DNA of 64,000 bases from NCBI GenBank assembly GCA_947359465.1, contig OX375874.1, positions 102,489,441-102,553,440 on the forward strand, in the 5' to 3' direction. Shown piece by piece: positions 43,901 to 63,450 of the stretch (within the stretch, counting starts at the first letter, position 1; the number at the start of each line of letters is the position of its first letter). Source of the stretch: Metellina segmentata (Eukaryota > Arthropoda > Arachnida > Araneae > Tetragnathidae). The translations under genes were made by a program, and so were the position numbers. The notes beneath the pieces were generated by a model. That model had not been told where the DNA came from and did no database searches. It saw only the letters and a list, made by a program, of their open reading frames with translations.

Positions 43901-46614
43901 GTCCTCAAATGAGGACGCTGGACGTTAATGGGTTAACGCCGAGGCCTATTGCTCTACTTTGGATGACTGTGTGCTTCCATCGTTGTGGCAGTTTTACGGG
44001 ATGTACCCATGTTACTTCCATGACGACATCGTCAGCTATCATGTTGCGAATTTGTGGTATTCTTTCTGGTAATACCATCTACCGTCGTGCAGAACAAACA
44101 ATCGTTTCCTGAAAATATAAAGATTCTACACGCTCTTTTATCCACTGTCCTCAAATGAGAACGCTGGACGTTAATGGGTTAACGCCGAGGCCTATTGCTC
44201 TACTTTGGATGACTGTGTGCTTCCATCGTTGTGGCAGTTTTACGGGATGTACCCATGTTACTTCCATGACGACATCGTCAGCTATCATGTTGCGAATTTG
44301 TGGGATTCTTTCTGGTAATGCCATCTACCGTCGTGCAGAACAAACAATAGTTTCCTGAAAATATAAAGATTCTACACGCTCTTTTATCCACTGTCCTCAA
44401 ATGAGGACGCTGGACGTTAATGGGTTAACGCCGAGGCCTATTGCTCTATTTTGGATGACTGTGTGCTTCCATCGTTGTGGCAGTTTTACGGGATGTTCCC
44501 ATGTTACTTCCATGACGACATCGTCAGCTATCATGTTGCGAATTTGTGGTATTCTTTCTGGTAATGCCATCTACCGTCATGCAGTACAAACAATCGTTTC
44601 CTGAAAATATAAAGATTCTACACGCTCTTTTATCCACTGTCCTCAAATGAGGACGCTGGACGTTAATGGGTTAACGCCGAGGCCTATTGCTCTACTTTGG
44701 ATGACTGTGTGCTTCCATCGTTGTGGCAGTTTTACGGGATGTACCCATGTTACTTCCATGACGACATCGTCAGCTATCATGTTGCGAATTTGTGGTATTC
44801 TTTCTGGTAATACCATCAACCGTCGTGCAGAACAAACAATCGTTTCCTGAAAATATAAAGATTCTACACGCTCTTTTATCCACTGTCCTCAAATGAGGAC
44901 GCTGGACGTTAAAGGGTAAACGCCGAGGCCTATTGCTCTACTTTGGATGACTGTGTGCTTCCATCGTTGTGGCAGTTTTACGGGATGTACCCATGTTACT
45001 TCCATGACGACATCGTCAGCTATCATGTTGCGAATTTGTGGGATTCTTTCTGGTAATGCCATCTACCGTCGTGCAGAACAAACAATTGTTTTCTGAAAAT
45101 ATAAAGATTCTACACGCTCTTTTATCCACTGTCCTCAAATGAGGACGCTGGACGTTAATGGGTTAACGCCGAGGCCTATTGCTCTATTTTGGATGACTGT
45201 GTGCTTCCATCGTTGTGGCAGTTTTACGGGATGTACCCATGTTACTTCCATGTCGACATCGTCAGCTATCATGTTGCGAATTTGTGGTATTCTTTCTGGT
45301 AATACCATCAACCGTCGTGCAGAACAAACAATCGTTTCCTGAAAATATAAAGATTCTACACGCTCTTTTATCCACTGTCCTCAAATGAGGACGCTGGACG
45401 TTAATGGGTAAACGCCGAGGCCTATTGCTCTACTTTGGATGACTGTGTGCTTCCATCGTTGTGGCAGTTTTACGGGATGTACCCATGTTACTTCCATGAC
45501 GACATCGTCAGCTATCATGTTGCGAATTTGTGGTATTCTTTCTGGTAATACCATCTACCGTCGTGCAGAACAAACAATCGTTTCCTGAAAATATAAAGAT
45601 TCTACAGGCTCTTTTATCCACTGTCCTCAAATGAGGACGCTGGACGTTAATGGGTTAACGCCGAGGCCTATTGCTCTACTTTGGATGACTGTGTGCTTCC
45701 ATCGTTGTGGCAGTTTTACGGGATGTACCCATGTTACTTCCATGACGACATCGTCAGCTATCATGTTGCGAATTTGTGGTATTCTTTCTGGTAATACCAT
45801 CTACCGACGTGCAGAACAAACAATTGTTTCCTGAAAATATAAAGATTCTACAGGCTCTTTTATCCACTGTCCTCAAATGAGGACGCTGGACGTTAATGGG
45901 TTAACGCCGAGGCCTATTGCTCTACTTTGGATGACTGTGTGCTTCCATCGTTGTGGCAGTTTTACGGGATGTACCCATGTTACTTCCATGACGACATCGT
46001 CAGCTATCATGTTGCGAATTTGTGGGATTCTTTCTGGTAATGCCATCTACCGTCGTGCAGAACAAATAATTGTTTTCTGAAAATATAAAGATTCTACACG
46101 CTCTTTTATCCACTGTCCTCAAATGAGGACGCTGGACGTTAATGGGTTAACGCCGAGGCCTATTGCTCTATTTTGGATGACTGTGTGCTTCCATCGTTGT
46201 GGCAGTTTTACGGGATGTACCCATGTTACTTCCATGACGACATCGTCAGCTATCATGTTGCGAATTTGTGGTATTCTTTCTGGTAATACCATCTACCGTC
46301 GTGCAGAACAAACAATTGTTTTCTGAAAATATAAAGATTCTACACGCTCTTTTATCCACTGTCCTCAAATGAGGACGCTGGACGTTAATGGGTTAACGCC
46401 GAGGCCTATTGCTCTATTTTGGATGACTGTGTGCTTCCATCGTTGTGGCAGTTTTACGGGATGTACCCATGTTACTTCCATGACGACATCGTCAGCTATC
46501 ATGTTGCGAATTTGTGGGATTCTTTCTGGTAATGCCATCTACCGTCGTGCAGAACAAACAATTGTTTCTTGAAAATATAAAGATTCTACACGCTCTTTTA
46601 TCCACTGTCCTCAA
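28903..46614 (+). repeat. Satellite domain D, higher-order repeat of variable monomer number
   Basis: A private substitution in one monomer type turns catgacgac into catgtcgac, creating GTCGAC. It occurs at about 29,261, 33,443, 36,641, 39,101, 42,053 and 45,251. The spacings are 4,182, 3,198, 2,460, 2,952 and 3,198 bp, that is 17, 13, 10, 12 and 13 monomers. Other units keep a fixed order around it: an aaagggtaaacg unit directly before it (except before the first one at 29,261), a gggtaaacg unit after it in all later copies, then units with caggctctt, acaaataattg and finally gagaacg and gatgttccc. The 17-monomer copy contains a 4-monomer duplication (30,871-31,854 repeated at 31,855-32,838). 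The 10-monomer copy lacks about four central monomers. Confidence 0.8.
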
Positions 46615-47091
46615 ATGAGGACGCTGGACGTTAATGGGTTAACGCCGAGGCCTATTGCTCTACTTTGGATGACTGTGTGCTTCCATCGTTGTGGCAGTTT
46701 TACCTGATGTACCCATGTTACTTTCATGACGACATAGTCAGCTATCATGTTGCGAAGTTCACTATAGATTGGTATGGTGACAATGGGGTTAACCGAATGT
46801 ACTGGCCTGCCCAGAGCCTACACCTGAAACATATTGAGAAGCTCTGGGACGAGTTTGATCTCCGAACTAATGGGTGCAACAACCGTCCAAAATCGGCAAA
46901 GGAACTTACATGTCTTCTCCAAGACGAGTGGAAGCAAATACTACTAGCCGTCATGCAGACTTGTGGAAAGCATACACCGGAGGGTTCATTCTGCAATTGC
47001 CTCTCGTACAAGCTCTACCAACTATTATATATGTATAAATTTTGTTTTACTTTTCGATCACATTTGTCCAAATACTTATTGGTAAATAGTG
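46615..47091 (+). pseudogene. 3' part of a Tc1-family (DD34E) transposase gene, fused to the last satellite monomer
   Basis: The last, partial monomer (46,615-46,756) reads on in frame into non-satellite sequence, giving an open frame from 46,665 to 47,108. It has no ATG start; the first codon of the open stretch is TTG. Motifs in order are LDDCVLPSLW, CYFHDD, HVAKFTIDWYGDNGVNRMYW, PAQS, HIEKLWDEFD, RPKSAKELTCLLQDEWKQI. The aspartate at 46,731-46,733 and the glutamate at 46,836-46,838 are separated by 34 residues, the spacing that defines Tc1-type DD34E transposases, which cut and paste DNA. After about 46,940 the homology moves to the +1 frame (LVESIHRRVHSAIASR from 46,960), so there is a frameshift. 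SPDLNPIE, usual in the family, is degraded to SLHLKHIE. The N-terminal DNA-binding half and first aspartate are absent here. It is not functional. Confidence 0.88.
47060..47091 (-). repeat. Right terminal inverted repeat of the Tc1-like element, with TA
   Basis: The stretch containing gtccaaatactta and ending aaatagtg is followed at once by TA (47,092-47,093), the target site duplicated by Tc1/mariner elements. It resembles the right end of the small Tc1-like element at 62,162-62,193, which reads gtcccaaatacttt...atatagtg. The open frame from the transposase runs through this repeat and stops only at 47,106-47,108, showing that the natural stop has been lost. Confidence 0.7.
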
Positions 47092-47093
47092 TA

Positions 47094-48080
47094 TTACTAG
47101 TGCTGTAAATCACCAAAAGTGAATATTACTCTTTCCTGCTTATAGATTTACGAGTCTATATTGTTGTTTCTTATCAGTTCATTTGTCTGATGAAATTCTC
47201 TATGATGTACAGTGATTTAGTTGTCTCTGAGTCTTTACGCTATTCGCTTTTGCTTGTATGTGTTGCGATGTCTCTTTATAATTAAGGCGTTGACGGAGGG
47301 TAAGATCCAAATTGGTTATTTCATTGAAGTGACTTTATGTTCCAATGCCAGTAACACTGAAAAGGAGGCAAAGTCGTAACTCATTAAGTCAAGTTTCGAA
47401 AAAACCTACAAAATGGAACTAACAGAAACTTAATTACTCTTGTGTCTATTAAAAGGGTAAAAGAAACCTTCAACTTGGTATTCCTGTAAAATTTAGTTTT
47501 GATCACTTGCCTCTTTTTAAACTTGAACACATCAATTATTAAATGTCTTGTTGGATTTGGAATTACACTCTTATTTCAGTATTACAAGACATAGCATGTA
47601 GTTTATGAAGCATCGAAGGATTGCGATTATTCATCAAAACCTGTTATTGAAAGTTCATTTAATCGATGAAAGCAATTTTGGACTGTTGGAAGTATTGCTT
47701 TTAATAGCATGCCATTTTAAGCATTATTAAATGTTTAAAGAAAAATAGCATTCGTGTAATTTAATACTGGGAAATGTATTTGCATAGAACTTATAATTTC
47801 TGCGTGTTTTTTTTTATTTTTTATTTTTAACCTATCTCATTTTCCCCTTTATGTTATACTTTACCCAGCTACTAGACACAGACTAGTACTTGATGGTATG
47901 CAAGAAAAAATTTGTTTCATCAAAATTAAATTATATTTAATTGAAATTTTTTTTAAACTTTGAATGACAAGAATTTTCTGAGTAGTCTAGTATTACTTTT
48001 ACCCCATCACACACACTTAATGGCTTATTAACCATTTCTATTAGATGACAGATCCGAGGATTCTGCTAATCATTAGAAGA
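47094..48080. other. AT-rich intergenic stretch, nothing recognised
   Basis: There is no supported ORF and no recognised transposon motif. A T-rich low-complexity run lies near 47,804-47,830. Confidence 0.6.
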
Positions 48081-48454
48081 TTCTATTGTTCCTTTACTTT
48101 GAATAAAATTCTTTGGAAATATTCTATTTGATCTTTACTCAGAAATGAATACTTTAGAAATATTATATTAATATTTCCACAAAATTTAATCCTTTGAAAA
48201 TATTCTATTTGATATTTCTTCAAAATGGAATCCTTTGGGAAGATTTCATCGATGGTTTCCTTAAAGTAGAATGCTTTTGAAATATTCTACTTTTGCTTTG
48301 TTTAAGATAGAATCATTTCAAAAAATTAATTGATGCTTCATTGAATATGATCCTTTGGAAAGAGTATATTGGTTATTTCATCCGAATATTGTTTATTGGA
48401 TATGTTATATTGGTACTCCACTTAGTATACATTCCATTGAAAAGATTATATTTG
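48081..48454 (+). repeat. Degenerate minisatellite, about nine ~41-bp units
   Basis: Units end in variants of cctttggaaata and begin with variants of ttctatttgat. Successive starts lie about 41 bp apart. Copies are strongly diverged from each other, so the array is old. Confidence 0.75.
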
Positions 48455-53611: not shown

Positions 53612-54345
53612 ATAAAGCAGTTTTGTCTTGACCATGTATATGATCATTAACAAAAATGACCAGATATTGATGGACAAAATTAAAACTCTTGCTGGACGAA
53701 ATTAAACTTTTGATGCACGACATTAACTCTAGATGCCCTAAATGAAACGCTTGAATGAGGAAATTAAAAAAAAAACCTGACCAGATATTGAAGGACGAAA
53801 TTAAAACTTTTGATGTACTAAATTAAAACTCTTGATGGTCGAAATGAAAATTTTTGATGGACGAAATTAAAACTCATGAAGGACGAAATTTAAACTCATG
53901 AAGGACGAAATTGAGACTCATGAAGGACGAAATTAAAATGCCTTGAAGGAGGACATTAAAAAACTGACCAGATGGACGAAATTAAAAGAAAATTTATCAG
54001 AACTTGATGAATAAAATTAACTGACATGAAAAGAAAACATGAAAAGAAAACTGACCTGATCTTGAGAAATGAAATTAAAAGAAAACTGACTATGTCTTGC
54101 TGGATGAAATTAAAATAAAACTTACCAGATTGTGATGGATGAAATTAAAACAAAACTGACCAGGTCTTGAAGGACAAAATTAGAAAACTGTCCAGATCTT
54201 GAGAAATGAAATTAAAAGAAAACTGACCATGCCTTGAAGGACGAAGTTACAAGACTGACCAGTTCTTGATCTCGGCATAATAAAAAAAATGTTGCAATAT
54301 ATTGATCGACGAGTTACCTCGTCATTGACAAACTTGACCAGACCG
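53612..54345 (+). repeat. Degenerate minisatellite with ~22-bp and ~43-bp units
   Basis: Short units of the type gatggacgaaattaaaactct alternate with longer ones that add ctgaccagatcttga before gaaattaaaagaaaa. The block opens with gttttgtcttgaccatgtat and closes with gacgagttacctcgtcattg, both parts of the dispersed TCGTC-core repeat. The array therefore seems to be an expansion inside a copy of that repeat. Confidence 0.75.
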
Positions 54346-57665: not shown

Positions 57666-58233
57666 CACTACCCTACAATAATGTACCGGACTACAAGATG
57701 TGATGGCATAAGAAATAATACATGCTTCCATACGGAGATGGTCCCCCACGTGCTGCAATTACACTAGCAACCCTTCTGGGCATGCTTTCAACAAGATTTT
57801 GATACACAACTATGGTTATTTGTGTCCATTCCTGCTGCAAGAATGTCGCCAGCTCCGCTGTAGATTTCGGTCTTGGTTATCTGGTCCGTAAGCGTCGCTC
57901 TAACGTGTACAAAAAATCTTCTATGGGGCTTAGGTCGGGACTCTGAGCATGCCAGGGAAGACGTTTTTCATCCTTATCTTGATACCACTACTTCATTGAG
58001 ACTGCAACATGACATGGAGTGTTGTCGTCCTGGAAGTAACATTCATCCATTCCATAAAATTCCTGGTGTGCAGGGAGAACCTGATTTTCCAAAATGTTCT
58101 TGTAGTCGTCGGCGTTCAATTAATGAGGAACAATATGCCAAGATCCCATGCCATACACCGAAAAACACCCCCAAACGAGTATGCAAGTTTTATACAAATC
58201 CGATGGTGTCCGGTCCATTAGTGGAGGGAAGTG
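57666..58233 (-). mobile_element. Internally deleted Tc1/mariner-type element, 568 bp, with TIRs and TA duplication
   Basis: The left end on the plus strand begins cactaccctacaataatgta. The right end on the minus strand begins cacttccctccactaatgga. These are terminal inverted repeats of about 26 bp with a few mismatches, both continuing ccggac. TA lies directly outside each end (57,664-57,665 and 58,234-58,235). The paralogous sequences at about 58,447-58,462 and 58,725-58,740 contain aatttaaatatatgctt without an insert, which confirms the target site. The element carries only the C-terminal half of a transposase on the minus strand; a full Tc1-type transposase is about 340 residues. It is non-autonomous. 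Confidence 0.9.
57691..58176 (-). pseudogene. Tc1-family (DD34E) transposase, C-terminal half, with in-frame stops
   Basis: On the minus strand the frame starts with VWGCFSVYGMGS at about 58,176, then LNADDYKNILENQVLP, EFYGMDECYFQDD, HVAVSMK, LPWHAQSPDLSPIED, RPKSTAELATFLQQEW and LVESMPRRVASVIAARGG, ending at 57,691. The second aspartate of QDD (58,024-58,026) and the glutamate of SPIE (57,919-57,921) are 34 residues apart, as in Tc1-type enzymes. Stop codons interrupt the frame before LNADD, after VSMK and shortly before RPKST. The helix-turn-helix region and first catalytic aspartate are deleted. Positions 58,004-58,116 align without gaps to the satellite monomer with 71 of 113 identical bases by hand count. 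Confidence 0.92.
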
Positions 58234-61728: not shown

Positions 61729-61929
61729 TCCTCCCGGTAGTTGTCTCGACGAGGTATCTGGTCACGAGTAAAAGTGACCAGATCTTGATGAATAAAAAAC
61801 CATTAAAAGAAAACTGACCAGATCTAAATGAACGAGATATCTCGTCATCAGAGAAAAGCTGACCAGATCTTGATGAACGAAAAGCCTCGTCCTCAGAAGA
61901 AAACGGACCAGATCTTGATCAAAGATTTA
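61729..61929 (+). repeat. Dispersed TCGTC-core repeat with three to four internal units
   Basis: The block opens with cctcccggtagttgtctcga and repeats gaccagatcttgatgaa.gaaa about every 45-60 bp. One unit keeps the nearly perfect palindrome aacgagatatctcgtc. It is the best link between the scattered fragments at 49.3 and 54.7 kb, the minisatellite at 53.6 kb and the 89-bp array that follows. Confidence 0.7.
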
Positions 61930-62193
61930 CATGTATGAACAAAGGAATTTGGACACTGCAGGTATTCGAAGGAGGATCCATCTTAGTGTGGTTTTTTTCC
62001 TGGGTAGGACAAGGCCCATTGCTTCATATACCTGGTACCATGAACTCTGACGTGTACCTCGACGTTCTGGATGATTCGACGTGTTGCAACTGTAATATAA
62101 GCAAAAGAAGGGCCAACCCTTTACTAAAGATAATATCAAAACATTTTTTCCTGAAAAACATGCAGTGTCCCAAATACTTTGGTCCATATAGTG
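61930..62193 (+). mobile_element. Tc1-like MITE with a transposase fragment, about 264 bp
   Basis: The right end (62,162-62,193) is a Tc1-like terminal repeat: gcagtgtcccaaatacttt then ggtccatatagtg. The left end (about 61,930-61,960) contains aaaggaatttggacactgca, the inverted counterpart, in degraded form. Between them a plus-strand frame from about 61,971 reads GGSILVWFFSWVGQGPLLHI, PGTMNSDVYLDVLDDST, which is the transposase segment around VWGCFSW and LDD. The frame then passes into the right end. The catalytic D and E region is deleted. The right end resembles that of the satellite-linked element at 47,060-47,091. Confidence 0.78.
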
Positions 62194-62261: not shown

Positions 62262-62344
62262 CGACTTCCTTTATCATTAACAAAATCAGTCATACCTTGA
62301 TGGACGACATATCTCGCCAGTAGAAATAAACTGACTCTTTTTAT
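62262..62344 (+). repeat. Diverged unit of the TCGTC-core repeat ahead of the 89-bp array
   Basis: It contains tcattaacaaaatcagtcat, cttgatggacgacatatctc and gccagtagaaataaactgac, related to the units at 61,729. It probably represents the starting sequence from which the array expanded. Confidence 0.55.
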
Positions 62345-63395
62345 AGTCATCATCAAAATACTGAATCAAACTCATCATTTCCTAGAAATTAGCGATAATT
62401 TGTTGACGATATATCTCGTCATTAGTCTTTATCTAGTCATCATAAAAAACTGAATCAAACTCATCATTACCTAGAAATTAGCAACACTTTGTTGACGATA
62501 TATCTCGTCATTAGTCTTTATCTAGTCATCATAAAAAACTGAATCAAACGCATCATTTCCAAGAAATTAGCAACACTTTGTTGACGATATATCTCGTCAT
62601 TAGTCTTTATCTAGTCATCATAAAAAACTGAATCAAACTCATAATTACCTAGAAATTAGCAACACTTTGTTGACGATGTATCTCGTGATTAGTCTTTATC
62701 TAGTCATCATAAAAAACTGAATCAAACTCATCATTTCCTAAAAATTAGCAACACTTTGTTGACGATATATGTCGTCATTAGTCTTTATCTAGTCATCATA
62801 AAAAACTGAATCAAACTCATAATTACCTAGAAATTATCAACACTTTGTTGACGATATATCTCGTCATTAGTCTTTATCTAGTCATCATAAAAAACTGAAT
62901 CAAACTCATCATTACCTAGAAATTAGCAACACTTTGTTGACGATATATCTCGTCATTAGTCTTTATCTAGTCATAAAAAACTGAATCAAACTCATCATTT
63001 CCTAGAAATTAGCAACACTTTGTTGACGATATATCTCGTCATTAGTCTTTATCTAGTCATCATAAAAAACTGAATCAAACTCATCATTACCTAGAAATTA
63101 GCAACACTTTGTTGACGATATATCTCGTCATTAGTCTTTATCTAGTCATCATAAAAAACTGAATCAAACTCATCATTTCCTAGAAATTAGCAACACTTTG
63201 TTGACGATATATATCGTCATTAGTCGTTATCTAGTCATCATAAAAAACTGAATCAAACTCATAATTACCTAGAAATTAGCAACACTTTGTTGACGATATA
63301 TCTCGTCATTAGTCTTTATCTAGTCATCATAAAAAACTGAATCAAACTCATCATTTCCTAGAAATTAGCAAAAGTTGACGAGATATCTCGTCATT
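62345..63395 (+). repeat. 89-bp tandem array, 12 copies, palindromic core
   Basis: Copies start at 62,345, 62,435, 62,524, 62,613, 62,702, 62,791, 62,880, 62,969, 63,055, 63,144, 63,233 and 63,322. Spacing is 89 bp except 90 after the first and 86 after the eighth, which lacks three bases (agtcataaaa). Each unit runs agtcatcataaaaaactg, aatcaaactcatcatt, cctagaaattagcaacactt, tgttgacgatatatctcgtc. Odd and even copies alternate at one site (catttcc versus attacc), apart from a doubled even type at copies 6 and 7, so the real period is a dimer of about 178 bp. The last copy is shortened and ends in the perfect palindrome at 63,376. Confidence 0.92.
63376..63393. repeat. Perfect 18-bp palindrome TGACGAGATATCTCGTCA
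   Basis: This is the uncorrupted form of the core found as gacgatatatctcgtc in the 89-bp units and in several scattered fragments. It can form a hairpin or bind a dimeric protein. No function is shown. Confidence 0.85.
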
Positions 63396-63450
63396 AACAA
63401 ATCTGGTTTGATACTAGTAGACGACACACGTCGTCAAAACCACTTTAAGT

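Follow-up and report, generated by a model that had tools for sequence, protein, structure and literature searches.

The 64,000–base pair (bp) stretch of the spider Metellina segmentata genome analyzed here, referred to below as the window, corresponds to positions 102,489,441 to 102,553,440 of chromosome 2 (C2) in a genome assembly of 1,665,100,106 bases and 173 contigs. It contains a long satellite array that passes at its right edge into a Tc1 transposon. The original prediction, made from the letters of the window, was that the satellite arose by amplification of an internal coding segment taken from that single DNA transposon. Together with 200 kilobases (kb) to the left of the window, 264 kb of sequence containing no N were examined. 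The array and the features around its right edge are as follows (window coordinates unless prefixed with C2; TIR, terminal inverted repeat).

1 to 46,756, plus strand: satellite array of 246-bp monomers, the first complete one starting at 17; 190 complete monomers in the window
46,511 to 46,638, plus strand: nested-element part (128 bp) of the last monomer, by alignment to six dispersed element copies
46,639 to 46,642, no strand: TTAA, 3′ copy of the nested element’s target-site duplication; the 5′ copy is at C2:102482973-102482976, left of the window
46,643 to 46,756, plus strand: Tc1 transposase part of the last monomer (114 bp, NAEAY...HVA; found in all monomers)
46,755 to 46,757, no strand: right array edge; AA at 46,755 to 46,756 is the 2-bp microhomology at the founding break
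46,757 to 47,091, plus strand: unamplified remainder of Tc1 (transposase C terminus; 3′ TIR at ~47,065 to 47,091)
47,092 to 47,093, no strand: TA target-site duplication of Tc1; the partner TA is at C2:102482198-102482199, left of the window

Tandem Repeats Finder detected a period of 246 bp from 1 to 46,756, with 190.1 copies. The predicted number of ~190 copies is thus correct for the window but not for the whole array, which extends 5,150 bp farther to the left and starts at C2:102484291. The complete array is 51,906 bp long, exactly 211 × 246 bp, with all monomers arranged head-to-tail and with zero insertions or deletions. The mean pairwise difference between monomers is 2.1%, and the mean difference from their own consensus is 1.4%.

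At the right edge, the last monomer runs in frame into the transposase of a Tc1 (DD34E) element, whose 3′ end at 47,091 is bordered by TA, just as predicted. The open frame (46,635 to 47,108) passes through the last monomer, matches Sleeping Beauty transposase 5cr4 (E value of 7.4e-08, phmmer), and shares 76 of 114 residues with a full-length Tc1 protein. On the same stretch, the Pfam model DDE_3 gave a weak, below-cut-off match (E value of 0.074); an unrelated model scored slightly better (E value of 0.027) but was also below cut-off. The proposal that the transposase segment of the monomer shares the downstream frame holds for the last monomer only; in the array interior, this frame contains three stops per monomer.

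The 5′ half of the same transposon and its left TIR, which had been expected at the far left end of the array, are indeed present there. This 5′ part belongs to the same Tc1 family, has its own TIR and TA, and ends at TTAA; transposase residues 36 to 215 are encoded to the left of the array and residues 214 to 328 to the right. When the two flanks were joined with the shared AA kept twice, they aligned end-to-end with seven of eight dispersed copies and from position 128 with the eighth. Entered as separate rows, the flanks overlapped only at the AA, and all eight copies were contiguous across the joint. Hence, both flanks make one Tc1. The TIRs at the two ends of dispersed Tc1 copies paired with each other, and the TIR of the left flank paired with those of the copies as well. 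Assignment to the Tc1 clade follows from TIRs with TA duplications and from a Tc1-related transposase with DD34E spacing (34 residues from the second D to E in copy L003, counted by hand). In copy L008, DDE_3 scored just above and HTH_Tnp_Tc3_2 below the Pfam cut-off, and protein relatives in Stegodyphus and Caerostris are named Tc1 transposase.

That the array is an amplified internal coding segment of Tc1 alone would be the simplest reading of the right edge, where 114 bp of the monomer are Tc1 and the flank is the remainder of the same copy. A genome search with the last monomer plus flank yielded 1,610 candidates, of which 37 were scored. Every one of the 37 matches starts at query position 270 or 272, which is not the monomer edge but a point inside the monomer (base 129 or 131). 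Since the scored Tc1 matches start within the monomer, this was the first sign that Tc1 supplies only part of it. The other 128 bp match a different element in all six of its copies that were fetched, and the monomer is made up of 128 bp from the 3′ end of this nested element, TTAA, and 114 bp of Tc1 (246 bp in total). The unit thus straddles an insertion joint and more than half of it comes from a second element, so the prediction of a single parent must be abandoned; we give Tc1 alone virtually no chance.

The second element can be followed from the left flank. After the TTAA of Tc1, the sequence CCCATTAACGCC is followed by 1.3 kb of other sequence that runs unbroken into the first monomer. 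The nested element is therefore delimited by two TTAA copies, the second of which lies inside the monomer; it is ~1.44 kb long and non-autonomous. The element is one of a dispersed family. Leaving aside this locus, 41 matches were scored; 31 of these covered nearly the full length (from position 23 or earlier to position 1,337 or later, out of 1,343), with 89 to 94% identity. In the six fetched copies, TTAA was present at 9 of the 12 flanks, three copies having it on either side, and CCCATTAACGCC was found at the left end of five. Bases 1 to 128 of the monomer align to the element’s 3′ end in all six; in the last monomer, they include the element end ...GTTAATGGG and a subterminal hairpin, GTCCTCA/TGAGGAC. 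At the site where the array-bearing Tc1 has TTAA, all eight sister copies compared have TCAA, so that the target came from a C-to-T change or from a rare variant.

TIRs of piggyBac elements start with CCC. The nested element combines a TTAA target duplication with short TIRs that start with CCC, and we call it piggyBac-like by these ends only. Two negative results count against the label: no Pfam match was found in six frames of the element, and its 40- and 79-residue remnants had no protein match. The broken 40-residue remnant lies on the minus strand of the element (L009:3537-4850, left of the window), and its frame is open over 45 to 79 codons in five of six sister copies viewed. This remnant may resemble a piggyBac N terminus; protein searches gave no match.

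The breakpoints at which the two parents were joined are visible at both array edges. Within the array, the Tc1 sequence ...CATGTTGCGAA (...GCGAA) runs directly into TTTGTGG, which belongs to the nested element. The AA that ends this Tc1 sequence is also found at both array edges: on the right, Tc1 sequence (GTTCACT) comes after it, and on the left, element sequence (CTTGGT) comes before it. Dispersed element copies run across the position of the left boundary, typically reading ...CTTGGTAA before it and TTTGTGGG after it. Since AA is common to both parents at the break, the junction has the form of a tandem duplication in which the microhomology is 2 bp long.

The junction also served as a genome-wide probe for the array. 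The head-to-tail junction 18-mer had 207 exact matches in the assembled 1.67-Gb genome, in the forward orientation only, and all 207 were in this array; no second array of the 246-bp monomer was found by this search, which supports the original prediction on this point. The other joint, from nested element to Tc1, was counted 211 times in this locus with up to three mismatches. With up to two mismatches allowed, there were 229 forward and 18 reverse matches genome-wide versus 210 and 0 in the 264 kb. The 37 relaxed matches located elsewhere compare with 26 for a reversed-pattern control and, with the listing of places covering the first 100, were provisionally taken as background.

Satellites and transposons often abut, and a preexisting satellite could have been hit by, or recombined beside, a Tc1 copy by chance. 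The edges argue otherwise, as they pass into both parents exactly at the monomer’s own breakpoints and the two flanks rebuild one Tc1 with no base lost. With no other array recovered by the exact junction search, a chance contact is close to excluded. We conclude that the locus is very probably a composite single-locus satellite that arose by tandem amplification of a 246-bp segment spanning the 3′ insertion joint of the nested element in an older Tc1.

The variation among monomers bears on how the array grew. Across the array, 70 monomer haplotypes and 69 variant states were distinguished. Six runs (13, 13, 13, 10, 10, and 9 monomers long) are repeated exactly at lags of 35, 14, 14, 37, 23, and 9 monomers, respectively, and so are two runs of 6 monomers at lags of 25 and 48; the longest run in 200 shuffles of monomer order was 3, as opposed to the 13 observed. 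A regular higher-order repeat structure was rejected, as the lag profile shows hardly any relief beyond a shallow minimum at 14 monomers; local block duplications are seen instead.

The edge monomers stand apart from this interior. The first monomer has nine differences from the consensus, more than any other of the 211; the last one, with eight, is within the top three. Each of the two carries three private variants versus 15 in the other 209 monomers combined, and the family’s G at site 60 is retained in the first monomer alone. The first monomer shares states at sites 149, 183, 187, and 195 with monomers 2, 19, 42, and 56 (0-based), the state at 149 being the only one of the four that is the family state; the last monomer shares two states with interior monomers 110, 120, 129, and 134. 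Divergent edges combined with a block-copied interior point to unequal exchange, which predicts this pattern; replication-based block duplication would look alike.

The array could also have been produced by a rolling circle: an extrachromosomal circle of 246 bp or longer would have formed from the nested locus, and its concatemer would have recombined back at the same site. A circle template yields monomers of equal length, as all 211 are here, and such a route has been proposed for Bari1, a Tc1-type element present in ~80 head-to-tail copies (PMC8834629, PMC9659126). The equal length carries limited weight. Over the corresponding bases, sister copies differ by 72 substitutions but only 3 indels (33:2 and 39:1), and with 69 variant states, about three indels would be expected, so that their complete absence is only mildly unusual and not striking. 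Nor is a circle needed, since the blocks at lags of 14, 35, 37, 23, and 9 and the divergent edges fit unequal exchange. A rolling-circle origin is therefore judged unlikely, with some probability left to it.

Another concern is that the assembler expanded a short array or collapsed a longer one. The 52 kb of the array exceed the typical length of HiFi reads, and a single assembly was available. However, the longest exact repeat is 3,515 bp, a length set against 70 haplotypes and 264 kb without N, and both edge joints would stand even if the copy number were wrong. An assembly artefact is accordingly considered highly improbable.

The array was also assessed for coding and structural properties. 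Only the last monomer is in frame with the downstream transposase. In the consensus monomer, all six frames contain at least one stop per unit; the longest open stretch, 81 codons, is a forward frame with a single stop per unit, and no sign of its use was found. Variable sites in the Tc1 part fall at 5 of 39 first, 10 of 39 second, and 8 of 38 third codon positions, so third positions are not favored. A coding array was rejected on account of the stops in each of the six consensus frames and the lack of a codon-position pattern in the variable sites. DNA folding of the last monomer was not unusual (z = −1.08), and no Rfam family reached the gathering score between 46,500 and 64,000. The array is a long head-to-tail series of near-identical non-coding monomers, as a satellite should be, but it occupies one locus by exact junction search rather than many. 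It is thus a single-locus, satellite-like array, and its state is most likely neutral and still evolving.

Each monomer carries one end (TIR) of the nested element. The element’s transposase, acting in trans, might thus have repeatedly cut or nicked these single element ends, with break repair driving the expansion. The TTAA is intact in 170 of 211 monomers and lost in 41, and the TIR of the array differs from that of the nested-element family by one near-fixed base; given these losses and this change, no constraint on the element ends is seen. We regard this putative mechanism as improbable; if it did operate, one-ended transposition would be a satellite-making engine. In a weaker form of the idea, it is possible that the array makes small RNAs against both parent families.

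Returning to the composite, tandemly amplified insertion joint, we propose the following order of events. The first two steps and the product of the third are read from the sequence. A Tc1 (DD34E) element inserted at a TA and decayed, carrying TTAA at one site. A non-autonomous piggyBac-like element of ~1.44 kb then inserted at that TTAA. Third, a 246-bp segment comprising the last 128 bp of the element, the TTAA, and the adjoining 114 bp of downstream Tc1 was duplicated in tandem. For the enzymatic route of this step and for the process of the fourth one, we infer, respectively, a break or fork-restart event with the 2-bp microhomology (AA) and growth to 211 copies by unequal sister-chromatid exchange, replication-based block duplication, or both. 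Such growth would have homogenized the interior monomers but not the two edge copies, which stayed divergent.

The relative ages of the parents agree with the nesting order, since Tc1 is more diverged from its family majority (9.1% in the 5′ part and 12.0% in the 3′ part) than the nested element is (3.6%), and the monomers differ least, by 1.4% on average from their own consensus, although the family values are rough, with majorities built from eight Tc1 copies, which were the best matches of the search, and six copies of the nested element. The roughness of the Tc1 ages is one of several points that weigh against the scenario. A microhomology of 2 bp is weak evidence for any particular repair route. 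The length of the array rests on one HiFi assembly. Last, at sites 118 and 225, the family state is found in four interior monomers each and in neither edge monomer; the edges are therefore not simply ancestral, and conversion or repeated mutation also acted.

Several other repeats were found in the 264 kb. The segment at 58,004 to 58,116, put forward in the original prediction as an independent, gapless alignment with 71 of 113 matching bases, is real and aligns without gaps, but it lies on the minus strand and has 70 matches (mean of 44 and maximum of 52 in 300 shuffles). This segment falls within a longer relic at 57,730 to 58,182 (minus strand), which represents the C-terminal portion of another Tc1 family (77% over 151 residues to P0008). 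Five places in the 200 kb to the left of the array match P0008 as well, and the aligned parts all start at residues 193 to 201, as if a truncated form had spread. Another Tc1-like relic, at 61,965 to 62,075 (plus strand; 50% over 38 residues), is located ~260 bp ahead of a 12-copy tandem array of 89-bp units (62,336 to 63,396). Diverged short tandem repeats with units of 21 to 67 bp are present at 53,667 to 54,269 and 61,770 to 61,919; the stretches 54,042 to 54,269 and 61,770 to 61,919, ~7.5 kb apart, both contain AAAACTGACCAGATCTTGA. An imperfect AT-rich 41-bp tandem repeat (48,073 to 48,289) lies ~1 kb to the right of the Tc1 end.

No satellite monomer crossing the joint of two nested transposons was found among the titles and abstracts listed in literature searches, a weak negative because subscription journals were mostly uncovered. 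Double insertion of transposable elements (TEs) was reportedly considered as a source of satellites by McGurk and Barbash in 2018. Satellites derived from transposons are described as well documented (PMC9659126, PMC12628747). A 2025 review in DNA Research treats the origin of composite satellite DNA monomers as an open question and proposes “TE graveyards,” that is, nested and degraded loci, as their source; it also retells a Xenopus model in which two nearby elements give rise to a construct with segments of both (PMC12628747). Our locus resembles this hypothesis in that the monomer comes from different TEs, the source contains a nested insertion, and the locus was tandemized (PMC12628747). 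As formulated in the review, the hypothesis involves multiple short stretches that are not assignable to a specific TE (PMC12628747); here, in contrast, the locus of origin can be read together with the two parent families, their target duplications, and the breakpoint that founded the array, and nesting took place in one step. Different TE types joined by nested insertion are found at our locus, but the heavy shuffling and degradation that the hypothesis ascribes to heterochromatic graveyards are not: the source is one recognizable two-element nest with its ends present.

Three described systems are similar in part. In the Chenopodium satellite CficCl-61-40, which derives from the tnp2 transposase of a CACTA element, a transposase fragment is likewise the start monomer and the array is still attached to the element, although that satellite is reported to have one parent, a ~40-bp fragment, and a distribution over several species, as compared to two parents, 246 bp, and one locus here (PMC7320549). 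The Bari1 cluster at h39 of Drosophila melanogaster is also a long head-to-tail array of a Tc1-type element, and one review has the circle reentering within another transposon, Stalker; according to these accounts, however, the Bari1 unit is the whole element minus two nucleotides, is heterochromatic, and includes no second element (PMC8834629, PMC9659126). In Drosophila virilis, the DNA transposon Tetris supplied a satellite unit of ~220 bp (TIR-220), described as an internal tandem repeat of its own TIR, whereas the unit considered here crosses the joint of two elements (PMC4079207).

How new satellites start has mostly been deduced from completed families that occupy many loci and no longer have their parents. 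On this chromosome, the successive stages are preserved: an old Tc1 with its TA, a later element with its TTAA, the tandem breakpoint, divergent edges, and interior blocks. The locus offers a readable, one-step case for the 2025 hypothesis and is valuable as a test case, not as a new system. For annotators, it implies that a monomer matching two transposons need not be a classification error. Overall, the locus shows that a satellite unit can arise from the very joint at which one transposon inserted into another, unrelated one.

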